DNA of 22,501 nt from a virus, in IMG/VR virus record IMGVR_UViG_3300032282_003136, positions 1 through 22,501 of that record, one strand, 5' to 3'. The notes below the pieces were generated by a model. It was not told where the DNA came from. It did not search any database and worked only from the letters and a program-made list of their open reading frames with translations. The stretch's first letter is position 1; the number at the start of each line of letters is the position of its first letter. Shown one piece after another: positions 2 to 22,272 of the stretch. The translations under genes were made by a program, and so were the position numbers.

Positions 2-469
2 AAGATCCATCGGGTCGTGGTCGAAGAGGAGCGGGTTAGCCAGCAGAAGGAGCTGCGGATCGTGGACAGCCTGGCGCCGTTGATCCAACAGCACCGGTTT
101 ATCGTTGCCAAGCAGGTGCTGCAGCGCAGCTATGCCGAGGCCGAGCAGGACCCGGAGCATGGCCACCTGCGATCACTGCCCTACCAGCTCTCACGCATCA
201 CAACGGAACGAGGCTGCCTGGAATGGGACGACCGAGCGGACGTGCTTTCGTTTGGGGTGAAGCACTTCCTTGATCTGCTGGCGAAGGATCAGGAGAAGGA
301 GCAGCAGAAGCGGGTGGACGAAGAGGAGGATGCCTTGCTGGAGTTGTTCCTGAGCAATGACGCGAGCGCGATCGACACCCTGGTGCTGGGCGGCCGGCGG
401 CCGGCGCAGCGGGGGCCCCAGGGCGGCGTCACCCGGGAGCCGCGGCCGGTGACAGCGGCGAGGCCCTAG
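2..469 (+). CDS. Terminase large subunit (T7 gp19-like), C-terminal part, cut by the window edge
   Basis: The frame is open from base 2, so the gene begins outside the window and only about 155 C-terminal residues are present; the GTG at 17 is internal. The protein is the ATP-driven DNA packaging motor and nuclease that cuts concatemers and pumps DNA into the prohead. The fragment shows the end of the nuclease domain: a QQHRFIV block, then LSRITTERGCLEWDDRADVL, which matches the T7 gp19 pattern of R-I-T-x-x-R-G-x-L-x-x-D-D-R-x-D; the acidic residues of the DDRAD motif are expected to help bind catalytic metal. A charged helix (KDQEKEQQKRVDEEED) and a low-complexity Gly/Pro/Arg tail follow. 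It lies on the strand opposite to the structural genes, and its TAG overlaps the stop codon of the convergent probable small terminase gene (CTAG at 466-469). Family assignment is firm from motif and context; the upstream ATPase domain is not visible. Confidence 0.85.
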   Translation, partial: KIHRVVVEEERVSQQKELRIVDSLAPLIQQHRFIVAKQVLQRSYAEAEQDPEHGHLRSLPYQLSRITTERGCLEWDDRADVLSFGVKHFLDLLAKDQEKEQQKRVDEEEDALLELFLSNDASAIDTLVLGGRRPAQRGPQGGVTREPRPVTAARP

Positions 470-756
470 GCCGCCCCCTCCACTGGCGGGGTGGGCAGCA
501 CCACCAGGCGGCGCTTCTCCCGGATGCGGCTGCTGTCGATGTTGCCGGCGATCTTCGCGTTCAAGCGCTCCCGCTGCGAAACGCCGATCGAGCTGGTGAT
601 GCCGTTGTGCTTGAGCACCGCCAGGGCCAAGCGCTTGTCCTCATCGGTCGGCACCAGCACCCGGCCGTCCTCGAGGACGCGGACATCGAGGGATTTTTCG
701 ATCTCCTTCAGCAGCTTCGCCTGGATCGACTCCAGCTGTTTTTGGTGGTCGGCCAC
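466..756 (-). CDS. Probable small terminase subunit / DNA maturase A (T7 gp18 position)
   Basis: This 96-residue, highly charged helical protein starts at GTG (754-756). There is no in-frame ATG before the upstream stop. The N-terminus is coiled-coil-like (KQLESIQAKLLKEIEKSLD), followed by a block ending in LALAVLKHNGITSS. This resembles the A-x-x-x-L-K-D-N-G-I segment common in small terminase subunits of T7-like phages, and the length is close to that of T7 gp18 (89 residues). Its role would be recognition of DNA for packaging together with the large subunit, encoded just beyond it on the other strand. The stop codon overlaps the large terminase stop, so the two genes are tail to tail. A 32-bp gap separates its start from the divergent YkuD-domain gene. 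No convincing Shine-Dalgarno sequence is seen. The functional call rests on a short motif and on position; it could be an unrelated small phage protein. Confidence 0.55.
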   Translation of the reverse strand: MADHQKQLESIQAKLLKEIEKSLDVRVLEDGRVLVPTDEDKRLALAVLKHNGITSSIGVSQRERLNAKIAGNIDSSRIREKRRLVVLPTPPVEGAA

Positions 757-788
757 GCTTACATGGGTGCAGACTTCCTGCCCCCATC

Positions 789-1316
789 ATGCCCTCCCTT
801 GTCGGACCGACCAAGACGCCGCACCAGTTTGGCTTCAAGTCTGGCGATCACCACCTTGTGGTCAACGACGACGCTGAGACCCTGAAGGCCTTTGACTTCT
901 ACGGCAACAAGCTGTTCACCATCCCCTGTCTGGCGCGTGGCCAGGGCAACGATGACGAGTGGGAATCGCCAAACACCGACACCCCGCCGGGCCTCTACAG
1001 GGTCGGAACGGTGTGGCGCGACTACGAGAAGCTCGGGGACGTCCCTGCCGCTCTGCCGTGGGATCTACTGCCCTATGGCTGGTTCACACTTGATCTGGAG
1101 GAACTGGAGGCCCAGGAGCGCCGCTACGGACGCGCCGGCATTGCTATCCATGGCGGCGGATCGGCCCTTGGTCCCATTGGCTGCTGGGCTCCTTGCCAGC
1201 CCCTGGTGACCACGCACGGTTGCATCAGGGCCCACAACGCTGATCTGCGCGACAAGATTATGCCCCTGCTGGCCAAGGGCACGGTGTTCGTGTCGGTCTA
1301 CCAGGAGGGTGCTTAG
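789..1316 (+). CDS. YkuD-fold (L,D-transpeptidase-like) protein, possible endolysin
   Basis: This 175-residue protein has no signal peptide or membrane segment. It carries the YkuD signature: IHGGG with His121, then TTHGCIRAHN with His143, the nucleophile-position Cys145 and Arg147. In the YkuD family this Cys/His/Arg set forms or cleaves acyl-enzyme intermediates on peptidoglycan stem peptides. In a phage lysis region it most likely acts on the host wall, either as an endolysin-like enzyme or by remodelling cross-links; the sequence cannot decide which. It is on the plus strand, against the flow of the late genes. It starts at ATG 789, 32 bp from the divergent small terminase gene, without a clear ribosome site. 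Its TAG (1314-1316) overlaps the stop codon of the convergent structural protein gene. No other lysozyme, amidase or glycosidase gene is seen in the lysis region, which favours a lysis role. The only other wall-active domains visible are in the ejection protein at 13329-16595. Confidence 0.75.
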   Translation: MPSLVGPTKTPHQFGFKSGDHHLVVNDDAETLKAFDFYGNKLFTIPCLARGQGNDDEWESPNTDTPPGLYRVGTVWRDYEKLGDVPAALPWDLLPYGWFTLDLEELEAQERRYGRAGIAIHGGGSALGPIGCWAPCQPLVTTHGCIRAHNADLRDKIMPLLAKGTVFVSVYQEGA

Positions 1317-2806
1317 CTCATTGCCTCCTGCGCCACCACATCCACACCAACGTCGGCAGATGTTGCGGCGGGTGTTGTAACGGCAATGGTGAGAGTATCC
1401 GAGAGGTCACCCTTAATGTTGGTGTATAGGGCGAATTGGTTTGAGAGGTCAAGGCTGAGCAGGCCGGATCCGCCAGCTGGGGCGGTAAAGCGATTCACAA
1501 CCTCTCCGCCAGTCATGGCCGTGGCGGAGACGTCTCGCTCTGCAAAGCTGTTTGGAGATCCAAGCGAAGACAGCGGGACGAAACTGCTGCCGGTCAGAGT
1601 AATCGGAACCGTAGGCTGCGATTGAATGATCTCAATTTGGCACAATGCCGATGCAGTAAGCATTAAGCCACGTGGCAGAATTTGGCCACGATTTATCAAC
1701 CCAATCGTATAGCTTTGGCCCGCCACTGGTGCCGCTGCCATTGCGCCGCCAGTAACAATGTCGGCAATCGTCAATGCATTGGTCGTATTGCTTGAAACCC
1801 TTGCCGTGTAAGTGATGCCTCCGTTCACGTATGCCACAAAACGGCCTTTCCATTGGTCAGTTGTCCAGGGAGTGCCGGCAACGGTCAGGCTGGTGGTTGT
1901 GCCAGCCGTGATCGCTGAGGATGCCTGAGTGTATTCAATGGTCCCCATGATCCTGTTGCGAAAGCTAATCAGTGGATACCGCACCGAGTTGGCAGGGACG
2001 GTGCGGCGCGGAGCCTGGGCAGCCATGCCGTAGCCGTATGTAAACCCTCGCTGATCATCTTGGCCGCCCTCAGTTATCACGGAAACACCCCAGTGGATCA
2101 TGTCCTGGACAGATGCCACGGCGGTTGTATTGCGCAGTTCATACCGTACCGGCAGGTTTCCAGTGCGACACCAGGGAAGCGTGTTAGCGGATAGCGTGGC
2201 AACGGAATACTCATGCATGATTAGATCAACGCCACTAATCGTCACCCCAAACCTAACCATGCCACCGCCGTACCAGGCATATTCTATAAAGGGCATCAGA
2301 AGATTGTTCCAGTTAATTGCGGCGATCCTTCCGGCATCGCCGCTCCACTGAGTTAGAGGGACCCTTGTTTCGTTAATAGTGCCGGTCGCGTCAGAACGTA
2401 TAACCACTGCCATCCCCTTTGGGTTTGCGGTAGTTACCAGGCTTCCATTTTGCTCGTGAAATGCTCCATTAGAGTCATCAAAAAACCCAAACCGTTGCAA
2501 CTGTCCCGTGAGTGCAGTGCCAAATACAATCGCCCCTGTTGCCCTTTGTGCTTTGCCAGGCTGATAGCGGTGGTATGGCCGCGACTGCCGGATGGCAATG
2601 TCACCGGCTGCCGTGCTCACCCGCATTCGCACTCCACCAAGCTCCGGTCGGTGGCTGATCGTGGCGCCGCCAACCGTCAGGCTTTGCCACCTTGCCGGCT
2701 GGACGCCGTACTCAAAATCCGCGTCGTAGCTGCTTTGGTGCCGTGTCGTCTTCAATCGCCCAAACACGTCCGTGTGATGGGGATCGAAGGTGATGGCGGA
2801 GCCCAT
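1313..2806 (-). CDS. Phage structural protein, probable tail/fibre-associated, of a family seen in cyanophages
   Basis: This is a 497-residue beta-rich protein with no signal peptide. The N-terminal half contains conserved-looking blocks: RQSRPYHRYQPGK (about 73-85), QRFGFFDDSNGAFHEQNG (about 104-121), a W-Y-G-G-G-M-V-R-F-G stretch (about 178-187) and TGNLPVRYE (about 215-223). From memory, this set occurs in a family of uncharacterised structural proteins of cyanophages and other aquatic phages. The C-terminal half is rich in Thr, Ser and Gly (for example a T-T-T-S-L-T-V run and further T/S-rich strands), as in receptor-binding or decoration proteins. It follows the small membrane-protein genes on the same strand and is less GC-rich than the core genes. 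It starts at ATG 2806, the only start codon after the preceding in-frame stop that I found; ribosome binding signals are poor. Its stop overlaps that of the YkuD-domain gene. A role in host contact is inferred; no enzyme motif is seen. Confidence 0.6.
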   Translation of the reverse strand: MGSAITFDPHHTDVFGRLKTTRHQSSYDADFEYGVQPARWQSLTVGGATISHRPELGGVRMRVSTAAGDIAIRQSRPYHRYQPGKAQRATGAIVFGTALTGQLQRFGFFDDSNGAFHEQNGSLVTTANPKGMAVVIRSDATGTINETRVPLTQWSGDAGRIAAINWNNLLMPFIEYAWYGGGMVRFGVTISGVDLIMHEYSVATLSANTLPWCRTGNLPVRYELRNTTAVASVQDMIHWGVSVITEGGQDDQRGFTYGYGMAAQAPRRTVPANSVRYPLISFRNRIMGTIEYTQASSAITAGTTTSLTVAGTPWTTDQWKGRFVAYVNGGITYTARVSSNTTNALTIADIVTGGAMAAAPVAGQSYTIGLINRGQILPRGLMLTASALCQIEIIQSQPTVPITLTGSSFVPLSSLGSPNSFAERDVSATAMTGGEVVNRFTAPAGGSGLLSLDLSNQFALYTNIKGDLSDTLTIAVTTPAATSADVGVDVVAQEAMS

Positions 2807-2863: not shown

Positions 2864-3058
2864 CTAGCTCTTGGCCAGCTTGGTGATGATGCCGGCCAGC
2901 ATCTCCAGCGCCCGGTAGCCCTTCACCAGCGCTCGATCAAAGGTGCCGAGGGCGTCGTTGTCGTGAGGCGTGGGGGTGAGGTTCACGATCACCACGGCAA
3001 TGGCGTGCGCCACGGCGCCGGCAATCATCCAGTGCTCGAAACTGTGACCGAGAATCAC
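2864..3058 (-). CDS. Small single-span membrane protein, candidate holin or lysis accessory protein
   Basis: The start is taken as GTG at 3058, because it overlaps the TGA of the upstream gene in the sequence GTGA, an arrangement typical of translational coupling; a longer reading to 3118 would run deep into the upstream gene. The resulting 64-residue protein has one hydrophobic segment near the N-terminus (about residues 10-27, WMIAGAVAHAIAVVIVNL). A TPTPHDNDAL turn follows, then a basic amphipathic C-terminal helix ending ITKLAKS. Small phage proteins with one membrane span, an N-L-T-P-T-P turn and such a tail are common beside lysis genes. The position after the tail fibre corresponds to T7 gene 17.5 (holin). 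Function is inferred from topology and position only. Confidence 0.6.
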   Translation of the reverse strand: MILGHSFEHWMIAGAVAHAIAVVIVNLTPTPHDNDALGTFDRALVKGYRALEMLAGIITKLAKS

Positions 3059-3309
3059 CGCTCTTGCCTCCCTTCCAGCGCTGACAGTCGGGTCTCGTGG
3101 TCGTTGCATCGATCCCATAGGCGATCAATAGAGGCATCCAGCCGTTCGATCGTCTTGTCCAGGTGGGTCAGGCTCTGCGTCAGCAGGGCCAGCGCCGTGG
3201 CCTGCTGGTTATCGGTGTGGCCTCGGGCATGCACCCATCGGTCCAGCTTGCCAAGTAGCCAGCCGGCTCCCAGGACCGCTATGCCGCTGATGGGCTCGGG
3301 GAGTGACAT
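3055..3309 (-). CDS. Small membrane-anchored coiled-coil protein in the lysis region
   Basis: This 84-residue protein starts at ATG 3309. The alternative ATG at 3360 would add 17 residues but lies upstream of, and would be excluded by, the candidate -10 box at 3334-3339. An AGG lies about 8 nt before the chosen ATG. The N-terminus has one hydrophobic segment (ISGIAVLGAGWLLGKL, about residues 8-23). The rest is a long heptad-patterned helix (LLTQSLTHLDKTIERLDASI, then a second helical stretch ending LSALEGRQER). The topology, an N-terminal anchor with a coiled coil on one side, resembles spanin-like or XhlA-like accessory proteins, but no family motif is clear. It is coupled by a 4-nt overlap to the next small membrane-protein gene, suggesting the pair works together, possibly in lysis. 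Confidence 0.6.
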   Translation of the reverse strand: MSLPEPISGIAVLGAGWLLGKLDRWVHARGHTDNQQATALALLTQSLTHLDKTIERLDASIDRLWDRCNDHETRLSALEGRQER

Positions 3310-3326: not shown

Positions 3327-3360
3327 TGCGGCAATTATACAGGGGTGGATCATGCCGCAA
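3327..3360 (-). promoter_or_regulatory. Candidate promoter with overlapping inverted repeat before the small membrane-protein genes
   Basis: On the minus strand a perfect TATAAT (3334-3339) lies 25 nt before ATG 3309, with TTGCGG (3355-3360) as a possible -35 box at a short 15-bp spacing. Exact 7-bp arms TGCGGCA and TGCCGCA (3353-3359 and 3327-3333) flank the -10 box with a 19-nt spacer and could form an operator or an RNA hairpin. In this GC-rich DNA a perfect -10 stands out, but the spacing is suboptimal and no transcription data exist. Confidence 0.3.
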
Positions 3361-3381: not shown

Positions 3382-3819
3382 TCAGGGAATGACAAATGTA
3401 GAGTCAAGGTTGGCGGATTTAATGTAGCCGCGCAAAAGGGCTTTTTGACTTTCGCTGACAACAGAAGGCTGTAAAATATTAAAAATGCAAGCCTGAAGGG
3501 CTGGCACATTTGGCCTTCCGGCTTTTGCGTCGCCGATTGCTGCAATGAACTCGACACACGCAAGTGCTAGAGGCAGTGAGTTTACTGCTGCCGCCCTGAT
3601 CAGTTGATAGACACTGCTATCAAGGATGCTGTCGTATAGGAGCTGGTAGTCAGGCTGCGGGGGGGGTGTGGGTTCCGCAAGTCGCGGCGTGTTGCCAGCA
3701 TCGAGCCAGGCTTGAAACTTTTGCCATTCGGGAGTACCGTTATTTCTGTCAGGAAGAAACATAGCACTGCCGTTTTCAAGAGGCAGCCTGATTGTATTGT
3801 TGGTGGTGAGTTGATACAT
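3382..3819 (-). CDS. Conserved-type hypothetical protein following the tail fibre
   Basis: This 145-residue soluble protein begins 6 nt after the tail fibre stop. Its N-terminus (MYQLTTNNTIRLPLENGSAM, then PEWQKFQAWLDAGNTP, about residues 29-45) is followed by a proline-rich linker (PTPPPQPDYQLL). This layout (short beta segment, E-W-x-x-F/Y-x-x-W-L-x-x-G-N-x-P, proline linker, helical tail) is often found in small genes just downstream of tail fibres in phages and may reflect a fibre assembly or trimerisation partner. The C-terminal half is helical with few charges. The gene is clearly lower in GC than the core genes, like the adjacent fibre C-terminus. No enzymatic motif is seen; function is unknown. 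Confidence 0.6.
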   Translation of the reverse strand: MYQLTTNNTIRLPLENGSAMFLPDRNNGTPEWQKFQAWLDAGNTPRLAEPTPPPQPDYQLLYDSILDSSVYQLIRAAAVNSLPLALACVEFIAAIGDAKAGRPNVPALQACIFNILQPSVVSESQKALLRGYIKSANLDSTFVIP

Positions 3820-3825
3820 GGTTGG

Positions 3826-5391
3826 TTAAAAGCGGGCTGAGGCGGTCCAGGCTGAAGTATAAAAACCATTACCCGGAGCTGTCAATGTTCCTTCTATATT
3901 AATTGCCTCTGAGTTTACTCCGTAGATGCTTGCCGTGGCAACGTTGAGTAGACTACTGTTGGCCTGCGTCATTGTGGGGGTGGTTCGCATGGAAACCTTT
4001 AGTGGTACATGCAGCGAATAGGTCCAGCCAGTTGTCCCATATACATTAAAACTGGAAGTGCCTCGCTGATAGTACCTCTGACACCGCATCAACGTAAACT
4101 CAAGAGGCGGCCGCTCAAACGGAGTCGCGGCAGCCCCGAGCTCGATTTGTACCTGGGCAATATCAAAGGTGCCGGATTGCTGTCCGAGGCTGCCATTGCG
4201 GGCGTTATATATGGAACCACCGTCAAGCCAAATGTTTAAGACAAGATAATCATCGTTATTAGTGCCCAATACTTTACCACTGATCGAAGGCAATGTTACA
4301 GTGACAGTCACCTTTTGCCAGCTAGTGCCAATGGATACTTTGGCGGTGCCAATGCCATTTACTTCTGCGCTAAATGATCCACCTGTGCCGAAAAACTGTA
4401 TCAGCTCCACGGCAATGCTGCGGGCAGCATCGGCCTTAGCCCAAAAGCTGACCGTTACCTGTTGACCTGCGAAGGTGCGGACATCTTCAATGCGCTGCGC
4501 CATTACCGAATAATTGCCTGCCCCGACAACCGAGCTGACAACCGTGCGGCAGAAGAACTCCGGCTCGCCCGGCACATCAGCCTGTCCCAGTGTGAATGCC
4601 TGACGCGTAACAGTGTGGGTACTGCCGGCACGGTAGGCACCCCACTGGTCCGCTGCATAGCCGTTACCTGTAAAGGTGGTCCCGTCCTGCCAGACGTCGA
4701 AGTTGCCGTTAATGATGCGGTTGCGGAGGCCAGTATTGGTGAGGTAGCGGCCATCGGGATCCACCGGGAAATAGTCCACCCAGTTCCAGGATGCGGCGGT
4801 AGGGGTGCCATAGATGAGCCTGGCCTTCACATCCGTGCCACCGACAAAGCCGGCGGGCTTACCTGACAGCGGGCTAAACGATCCCAGACCGGTGGTGTTG
4901 CTGATCTCGATCCGCTGGCTTGCTGTCGGCGATGCCGGGATATTCGCCACAGCAGCGATGGGCTGATACGGCAGTGCTGCTGCCACGGCGGCAATAGCAG
5001 CATTTGCCGCCGCTGCCGCCGTCGTTGCCGTGGTCACCGCAGAGGCCGTGATGTCAGCCTGCTCCTGGATCACGTAGAGCGATTGCAGGTCGGCCGTGTT
5101 GAGGTCGGCCTGCGTGGGCGGGGAGCCTGGAGCCCAGACCACCAGCTGCGAGCCGTTTGGCGTCTTGCGGATGACTGTGAGCGTTGCCCCTACGGCCGGC
5201 GCAACGGTGGTTTGGATCTGGGTGTTGGAGAGCCAAGAGAATCCGGCGCCTTCCGCCAGTTCTGTCCCGGTTCCCGCGGCAACGTCATAGCCCAAATAAA
5301 CCTTTACGTGGGCTCGCAGGATGAAAGGGAAGCTGACCGAAAACAGACGGGTTGTGCCGTTGCCCGGGGTCTGGGTGTAGGCGTAGGCCAA
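3826..5391 (-). CDS. Tail fibre protein with T7 gp17-type N-terminal attachment domain
   Basis: This 521-residue protein is close in length to T7 gp17 (553). Residues 1 to about 112 match the T7 fibre attachment domain: a Y-x-x-x-x-G-x-x-x-x-F-S-V-x-F-P-F start, a strand-rich middle, then L-N-x-A-x-L-Q-S-L-Y-V-I-Q-E-Q-A-D. An Ala-rich helical segment follows (about 115-145), probably the trimeric shaft start. From about 230 a receptor-facing part begins with RNRIINGNFDVWQDGTTF, then a jelly-roll-like domain ending AQVQIELGAAATPFERPP, as in carbohydrate-binding regions of phage and cyanobacterial surface proteins. The start is TTG at 5391: the next in-frame stop is only 21 nt upstream and no ATG or GTG is available, while homology to gp17 begins at once. 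The last 200 codons are markedly lower in GC than the N-terminal part, suggesting exchange of the receptor-binding tip. Confidence 0.85.
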   Translation of the reverse strand: MAYAYTQTPGNGTTRLFSVSFPFILRAHVKVYLGYDVAAGTGTELAEGAGFSWLSNTQIQTTVAPAVGATLTVIRKTPNGSQLVVWAPGSPPTQADLNTADLQSLYVIQEQADITASAVTTATTAAAAANAAIAAVAAALPYQPIAAVANIPASPTASQRIEISNTTGLGSFSPLSGKPAGFVGGTDVKARLIYGTPTAASWNWVDYFPVDPDGRYLTNTGLRNRIINGNFDVWQDGTTFTGNGYAADQWGAYRAGSTHTVTRQAFTLGQADVPGEPEFFCRTVVSSVVGAGNYSVMAQRIEDVRTFAGQQVTVSFWAKADAARSIAVELIQFFGTGGSFSAEVNGIGTAKVSIGTSWQKVTVTVTLPSISGKVLGTNNDDYLVLNIWLDGGSIYNARNGSLGQQSGTFDIAQVQIELGAAATPFERPPLEFTLMRCQRYYQRGTSSFNVYGTTGWTYSLHVPLKVSMRTTPTMTQANSSLLNVATASIYGVNSEAINIEGTLTAPGNGFYTSAWTASARF

Positions 5392-5449
5392 GGCAAGCTC
5401 TGCAGCCGTGTATCACTTTATTGTGGGGCCGCCGCCGCCGGCTACAAGG

Positions 5450-20983: not shown

Positions 20984-21025
20984 GAGCGATCCAGCGCTGT
21001 AGAGCACATGCTATCGGCTGCCATG

Positions 21026-22227: not shown

Positions 22228-22272
22228 GCGCTGACCCCTCCCGCAGGGGGGCCGGCGCTACACAGGTGTAGC
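22228..22272 (-). repeat. Adjacent inverted repeats between scaffold and capsid genes
   Basis: A GC-rich imperfect hairpin spans 22228-22258 (outer GCGC/GCGC, inner CCCC/GGGG). It abuts a palindrome at 22257-22272 with 7-bp arms GCTACAC and GTGTAGC around AG. The remaining bases of the 22101-22296 gap hold no ORF. No T-run follows, so a terminator is unlikely; an RNA processing site, mRNA stabiliser or protein-binding site is possible. Confidence 0.45.

Follow-up and report, generated by a model that had tools for sequence, protein, structure and literature searches.

Genome comparison shows that the large terminase gene (TerL) came to face the small terminase gene (TerS) tail to tail before the S-SRP02-like T7-type cyanophages diverged. 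We describe this arrangement in the window, the whole 22,501-base IMG/VR virus record IMGVR_UViG_3300032282_003136, which carries at its left end four neighbouring genes in the order TerL C-terminus (+), TerS (-), YkuD enzyme (+) and structural protein (-). The T7-type late genes of the window (major capsid protein, tail tubes, internal virion proteins and tail fibre) are on the minus strand. The strand alternation of the four genes, claimed in a preliminary description, holds, with all four open reading frames present where it had placed them. On the genomes compared, this layout is real, old, lineage-wide and unusual among T7-type phages. We favour, with some reservation, the reading that a gene rearrangement defining the lineage underlies the alternation, which reflects no special property of these four genes. 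The block contains the following features.

2 to 469, plus strand: TerL, C-terminal 155 residues (phrog_15524, E 3e-25; PF22530 just under the cut-off)
466 to 469: stop-codon overlap of TerL and TerS, CTAG, 4 nt (from the sequence)
466 to 756, minus strand: TerS of the T7 gp18 family, GTG start (from the PF11123 and phrog_891 matches of lineage homologues)
757 to 788: divergent gap of 32 bp, TerS start codon to YkuD start codon (from the sequence)
789 to 1316, plus strand: YkuD (L,D-transpeptidase-fold) enzyme, putative endolysin (PF03734)
1313 to 1316: stop-codon overlap of YkuD and the structural protein, TTAG, 4 nt (from the sequence)
1313 to 2806, minus strand: virion structural protein, variable cassette (phrog_1645, E 6e-67)

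The divergent gap is 32 bp, as had been claimed, and the two tail-to-tail overlaps, given earlier as 3 nt, are both 4 nt. CTAG and TTAG each carry a stop codon on both strands, and such overlaps would be by-products of compaction. Only the last 155 TerL residues are in the window, and since the contig begins inside TerL, the plus-strand promoter lies outside it. This part of TerL is 89-95% identical to the complete TerL genes of six relatives. The window TerS alone gives a weak match (phrog_891, E 0.004); its assignment is supported by the observation that all seven lineage TerS homologues match PF11123 DNA_Packaging_2 (best E 2e-11) and phrog_891 (best E 3e-11), the copies in six relatives being 78-87% identical to that of the window.

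Searches with TerL and TerS alignments returned 109 loci, in which TerS was then located by profile search. TerS lies opposite TerL, beyond the TerL 3' end, in 55 of the 109 loci and before TerL on the same strand in 49; the profile search found no TerS in the remaining five. The 55 lineage loci are those whose TerL has 49% or more identity to the lineage, together with those retrieved with TerS; they contain near-identical contigs, 47 being sequence-distinct. The 49 outgroup loci have a TerL identity to the lineage of at most 39%. All 55 IMG/VR lineage loci have TerL and TerS converging at the stop codons, as do S-SRP02 and S37-C6. The T7 order, with TerS upstream of TerL on one strand, is found in 0/55 lineage loci versus 49/49 outgroup loci with an identified TerS. 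The contrast with T7-type one-strand order that had been drawn for the window thus stands, and extends to Syn5, with all genes on one strand, and to P60, likewise in the region read. Phages with the T7-type order have a homologous TerL, and TerS in the 49 outgroup loci is of the T7 gp18 family; TerS in Syn5 and P60 was not detected with the TerS profile used. We found no earlier description of the convergent TerL/TerS layout in the literature searched.

The window is a single metagenomic contig, cut inside TerL, which would leave room for a chimeric contig or a misannotation as the source of the arrangement. We give this explanation virtually no weight, as the same arrangement is repeated in six independent metagenome assemblies close to the window, six IMG/VR contigs having TerL and TerS 78-95% identical to its own and arranged alike, and in the isolate S-SRP02; the TerL/TerS part is also found in fosmid genomes. 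Misassembly is, by this comparison, already refuted by independent genomes. S-SRP02 (MW822601, PMC8790148) carries a hypothetical gene, TerL (+), TerS (-, annotated as hypothetical) and a lysis-type gene (+), with the rest on the other strand. It differs from the window in having a C39 peptidase instead of YkuD and a TerL/TerS overlap of 11 nt. Its TerL is about 50% identical to that of the window over the common C-terminal stretch, and both have TerL, TTA, TTB, MCP and p044, placing the window in the S-SRP02-like T7-type lineage. Near-complete relatives further share RNA polymerase, integrase and MarR, and across the lineage the related TerL, capsid, tail, RNA polymerase and integrase genes follow one order. 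The accessible part of its paper (PMC8790148) makes no remark on the strand pattern. In the uncultured fosmid phages MedDCM-OCT-S38-C3 (Stopalavirus) and S37-C6 (Oinezvirus), TerL and TerS are also convergent, overlapping by 29 and 20 nt, and a MarR-like gene is present; unlike in the window, most of their virion genes are on the TerL strand and the slot beside TerS is without a lysis gene.

While the convergence is kept throughout the lineage loci, the exact 4-nt TerL/TerS overlap is not. Of the 47 distinct loci, 43 overlap by 4-68 nt and the others lie within 8 nt, the extremes being a gap of 8 nt and an overlap of 68 nt. This variation in length indicates that no particular stop overlap has been selected at the TerL/TerS junction. 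The overlaps longer than 4 nt in these loci (11, 14, 20, 26, 29, 32, 53, 59 and 68 nt) are all 2 modulo 3, so that the TerL and TerS tails keep one fixed relative reading phase. Convergence being the most conserved feature, with nearly all distinct loci overlapping, TerL and TerS could form a regulated unit in which antisense 3' ends determine the ratio of TerL to TerS, with the lysis gene merely carried along. We hold this to be quite improbable: the overlap has no fixed length, the junction shows no conserved RNA structure, and tight packing suffices as an explanation.

The reversal extends beyond the four genes. According to our in-house gene caller, which yields an occasional spurious open reading frame, nearly all called genes in the relatives G001 to G006 are on one strand, the exceptions being p013, a second open reading frame, TerL and the lysis-slot gene. 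The annotation of the S-SRP02 record itself agrees, its odd strand holding only p010, p012 and p013. As read from these gene maps, the freshwater branch has an island of one or two upstream open reading frames, TerL and usually a lysis-type gene, opposite to the remaining genes of the genome and with TerS nested inside; in G001-G006 and S-SRP02 the island is on plus and almost everything else on minus. A noncoding region of 0.8-1.0 kb with near-identical blocks across the six genomes lies between the early genes and p013 in G001-G006, and one 39-bp unit is tandemly repeated upstream of p013 in G006. The island would most likely be expressed from its own plus-strand start within this noncoding region. 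No promoter for the island or for TerS was identified.

YkuD of the window scores 30.2 bits against PF03734 (cut-off 23.4), has a THGCIR catalytic motif and is 55-58% identical to genes of other cyanophages, one of them annotated as an endolysin. The lysis slot is occupied either by YkuD or by an unrelated C39 peptidase (G003 and S-SRP02), and in three relatives (G007, L051 and L145) YkuD is on the minus strand, directly upstream of TerS on the TerS strand. Among the checked genomes with a full-length plus-strand YkuD, the 4-nt TTAG overlap is kept in 5/5 (the window, G001, G002, G005 and G006), and the overlapping gene belongs to three unrelated protein families. These observations point to a YkuD stop context that provides an opposite-strand stop for whichever cassette adjoins. 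The structural cassette at the YkuD stop is itself variable, unrelated genes substituting there in relatives, and GC content is 55.8% over 1313-2806 and 50.2% over 3382-3819, versus 66% from 5451 onward. We further note that in G004 (5318-5437, with TerL on plus) YkuD is cut to 39 residues with its N- and C-terminal ends fused in frame, which may be a real deletion or an assembly fault.

The absence of terminators at both junctions, another claim made for the window, is confirmed there and in ten relatives. The TerL/TerS and YkuD junctions are without a T-run or a consistent hairpin, and a bidirectional terminator was rejected on both counts; the aligned capsid/tail-tube junction, by contrast, has a T-run and a hairpin resembling a terminator. 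With no visible terminator at the junctions, read-through and overlapping antisense RNA are plausible. Sigma-70 promoters and terminators in the window were not above shuffles, and an Rfam search returned nothing. A search of noncoding DNA for phage RNA polymerase promoters, with exact 14-mers and approximate 18-mers, gave only the palindrome described below, local tandem repeats and low-complexity matches. The sequence CTGCACCCATGTAA, which we take to resemble the Syn5 promoter, was dropped as a look-alike of it, the motif being palindromic and present in both orientations.

This geometry had led to the proposal of a noncontiguous operon, with the structural gene and TerS on one minus transcript and TerL and the lysis gene on one plus transcript, and with mutual antisense control. 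In a fuller form of this proposal the two transcripts would regulate each other via polymerase collision and double-stranded RNA cleavage, timing lysis against packaging. Such operons have been described in S. aureus and its phages, as menE-menC-MW1733-ytkD-MW1731 and tha/ith in phage 80alpha (PMC7154746, PMC11087260). The window resembles them in its nesting of opposite-strand genes, TerS between TerL and YkuD, and YkuD between TerS and the structural gene, and the lack of terminator-like structures in the window and its relatives also fits; co-transcription was measured in those systems, whereas here the likeness is one of geometry. We nevertheless think the proposal rather unlikely, since the lysis gene is swapped and strand-flipped among relatives, TerS has its own candidate control site, and the marine relatives keep the TerL/TerS convergence without a lysis slot. 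Interchange of YkuD and C39, and the minus-strand placement in three relatives, mean that the mutual antisense coupling of lysis and packaging put forward earlier is not a conserved requirement, and an obligatory coupling is unsupported. A lysis-timing antisense switch is possible but would not be required, the swaps and flips of the slot arguing against a conserved function. Some antisense RNA would be expected even so, with no need for a dedicated lysis-packaging timer.

The candidate control site of TerS belongs to a wider series. A motif search identified a palindrome, TNCA-N4-TGNA, enriched in noncoding DNA (DNA outside our in-house gene calls, with the shuffled mean as expectation). G001-G006 and S-SRP02 have 11-13 noncoding copies each versus shuffled means of 0.36-0.74; the error-rich contig G007 likewise has 11-13, versus 1.34, and S38-C3 has 11 versus 1.10. 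Enrichment is not clear in S37-C6 (5 versus 2.38), and Syn5, which differs from the window in this respect too, shows none (6 versus 5.2 over the whole genome). In the window the copies are as follows.

760 to 771: operator-like palindrome TACATGGGTGCA, preceding the TerS start by 3 nt and the YkuD ATG by 17 nt
2834 to 2847: degenerate copy upstream of the structural protein
3338 to 3349: copy preceding the minus-strand gene at 3055-3309, 28 nt before its called start
5401 to 5412: copy preceding the tail fibre gene by 9 nt
20990 to 21001: copy preceding tail tube A by 6 nt
22259 to 22270: copy preceding the major capsid gene by 158 nt

Palindromes lie 0-10 nt before several start codons, including those of TerS (3 nt), SSB, tail tube A and tail fibre. 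The site 3 nt before TerS is found in the window, G001-G005 and S-SRP02, and is kept where the neighbour is C39 (G003 and S-SRP02). By hand tally, a palindrome precedes TerS in 11/13 divergent lysis arrangements versus 0/3 with a co-directional YkuD, a difference (Fisher p 0.018) that is suggestive only, since few arrangements enter the tally and they come from related genomes, so that the p value overstates independence. Action as an RNA hairpin is disfavoured, as many sense-strand copies would pair A-C or G-G. The series is a candidate operator array, the binding protein being guessed from location.

The palindrome beside the TerS and YkuD starts is observed directly; its conserved position 3 nt before TerS suggests that TerS has its own control site and need not rely on read-through from the structural genes across YkuD. 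The genes of the block are, in our judgement, probably independent units, with TerS having a controlled start of its own inside the 32-bp gap; the operator-like site there would act beside both start codons. Against this, the gap is too short for two full promoters, so that expression of the lysis gene may yet require read-through across TerS. We also count against independent units the low synonymous variation at TerS codons 71-90 (window about 487-546) across seven genomes, as low in 86/5000 permutations, which could mark a hidden plus-strand element. A synonymous-site dip expected of a plus-strand promoter was looked for within the TerS 5' end and not seen.

The location of the palindromes may point to a MarR-like regulator. 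Five genomes, G001-G005, have them exactly 31, 72 and 163 nt ahead of the MarR-like gene; G006 has them at 31 and 163 nt and S38-C3 at 31 nt, and none was found before that gene in S-SRP02. The Pfam MarR match of the protein is weak, below the cut-off, and since the window stops short of the MarR gene, we assume the gene for this phage on the basis of its relatives. A MarR-family repressor might bind the genome-wide array, including the shared TerS/lysis site, and silence late genes one by one in lysogeny, the convergent TerL/TerS adding antisense control after induction; we consider this fuller scheme unlikely. For LUZ100 and T7-like relatives with temperate features, control by a MarR-like regulator has been proposed (PMC10134795). 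LUZ100 similarly has a MarR-like regulator near the integrase and proposed binding sites, although these are placed only around the RNA polymerase promoter, while here palindromes also precede late genes. The stoperator-type array of mycobacteriophage cluster A places numerous repressor sites in short intergenic gaps, and its repressor recognises an asymmetric site (PMC9283540); the many intergenic candidate sites here are palindromic.

The two packaging subunits normally share one operon. That a whole lineage keeps TerL and TerS on opposite strands, facing each other, raises the question of how the TerL:TerS balance is set. Antisense control is testable, the isolate S-SRP02 being available, and the palindrome array, as a candidate set of operators, gives a practical starting point for the debate on temperate lifestyles among T7-like phages.
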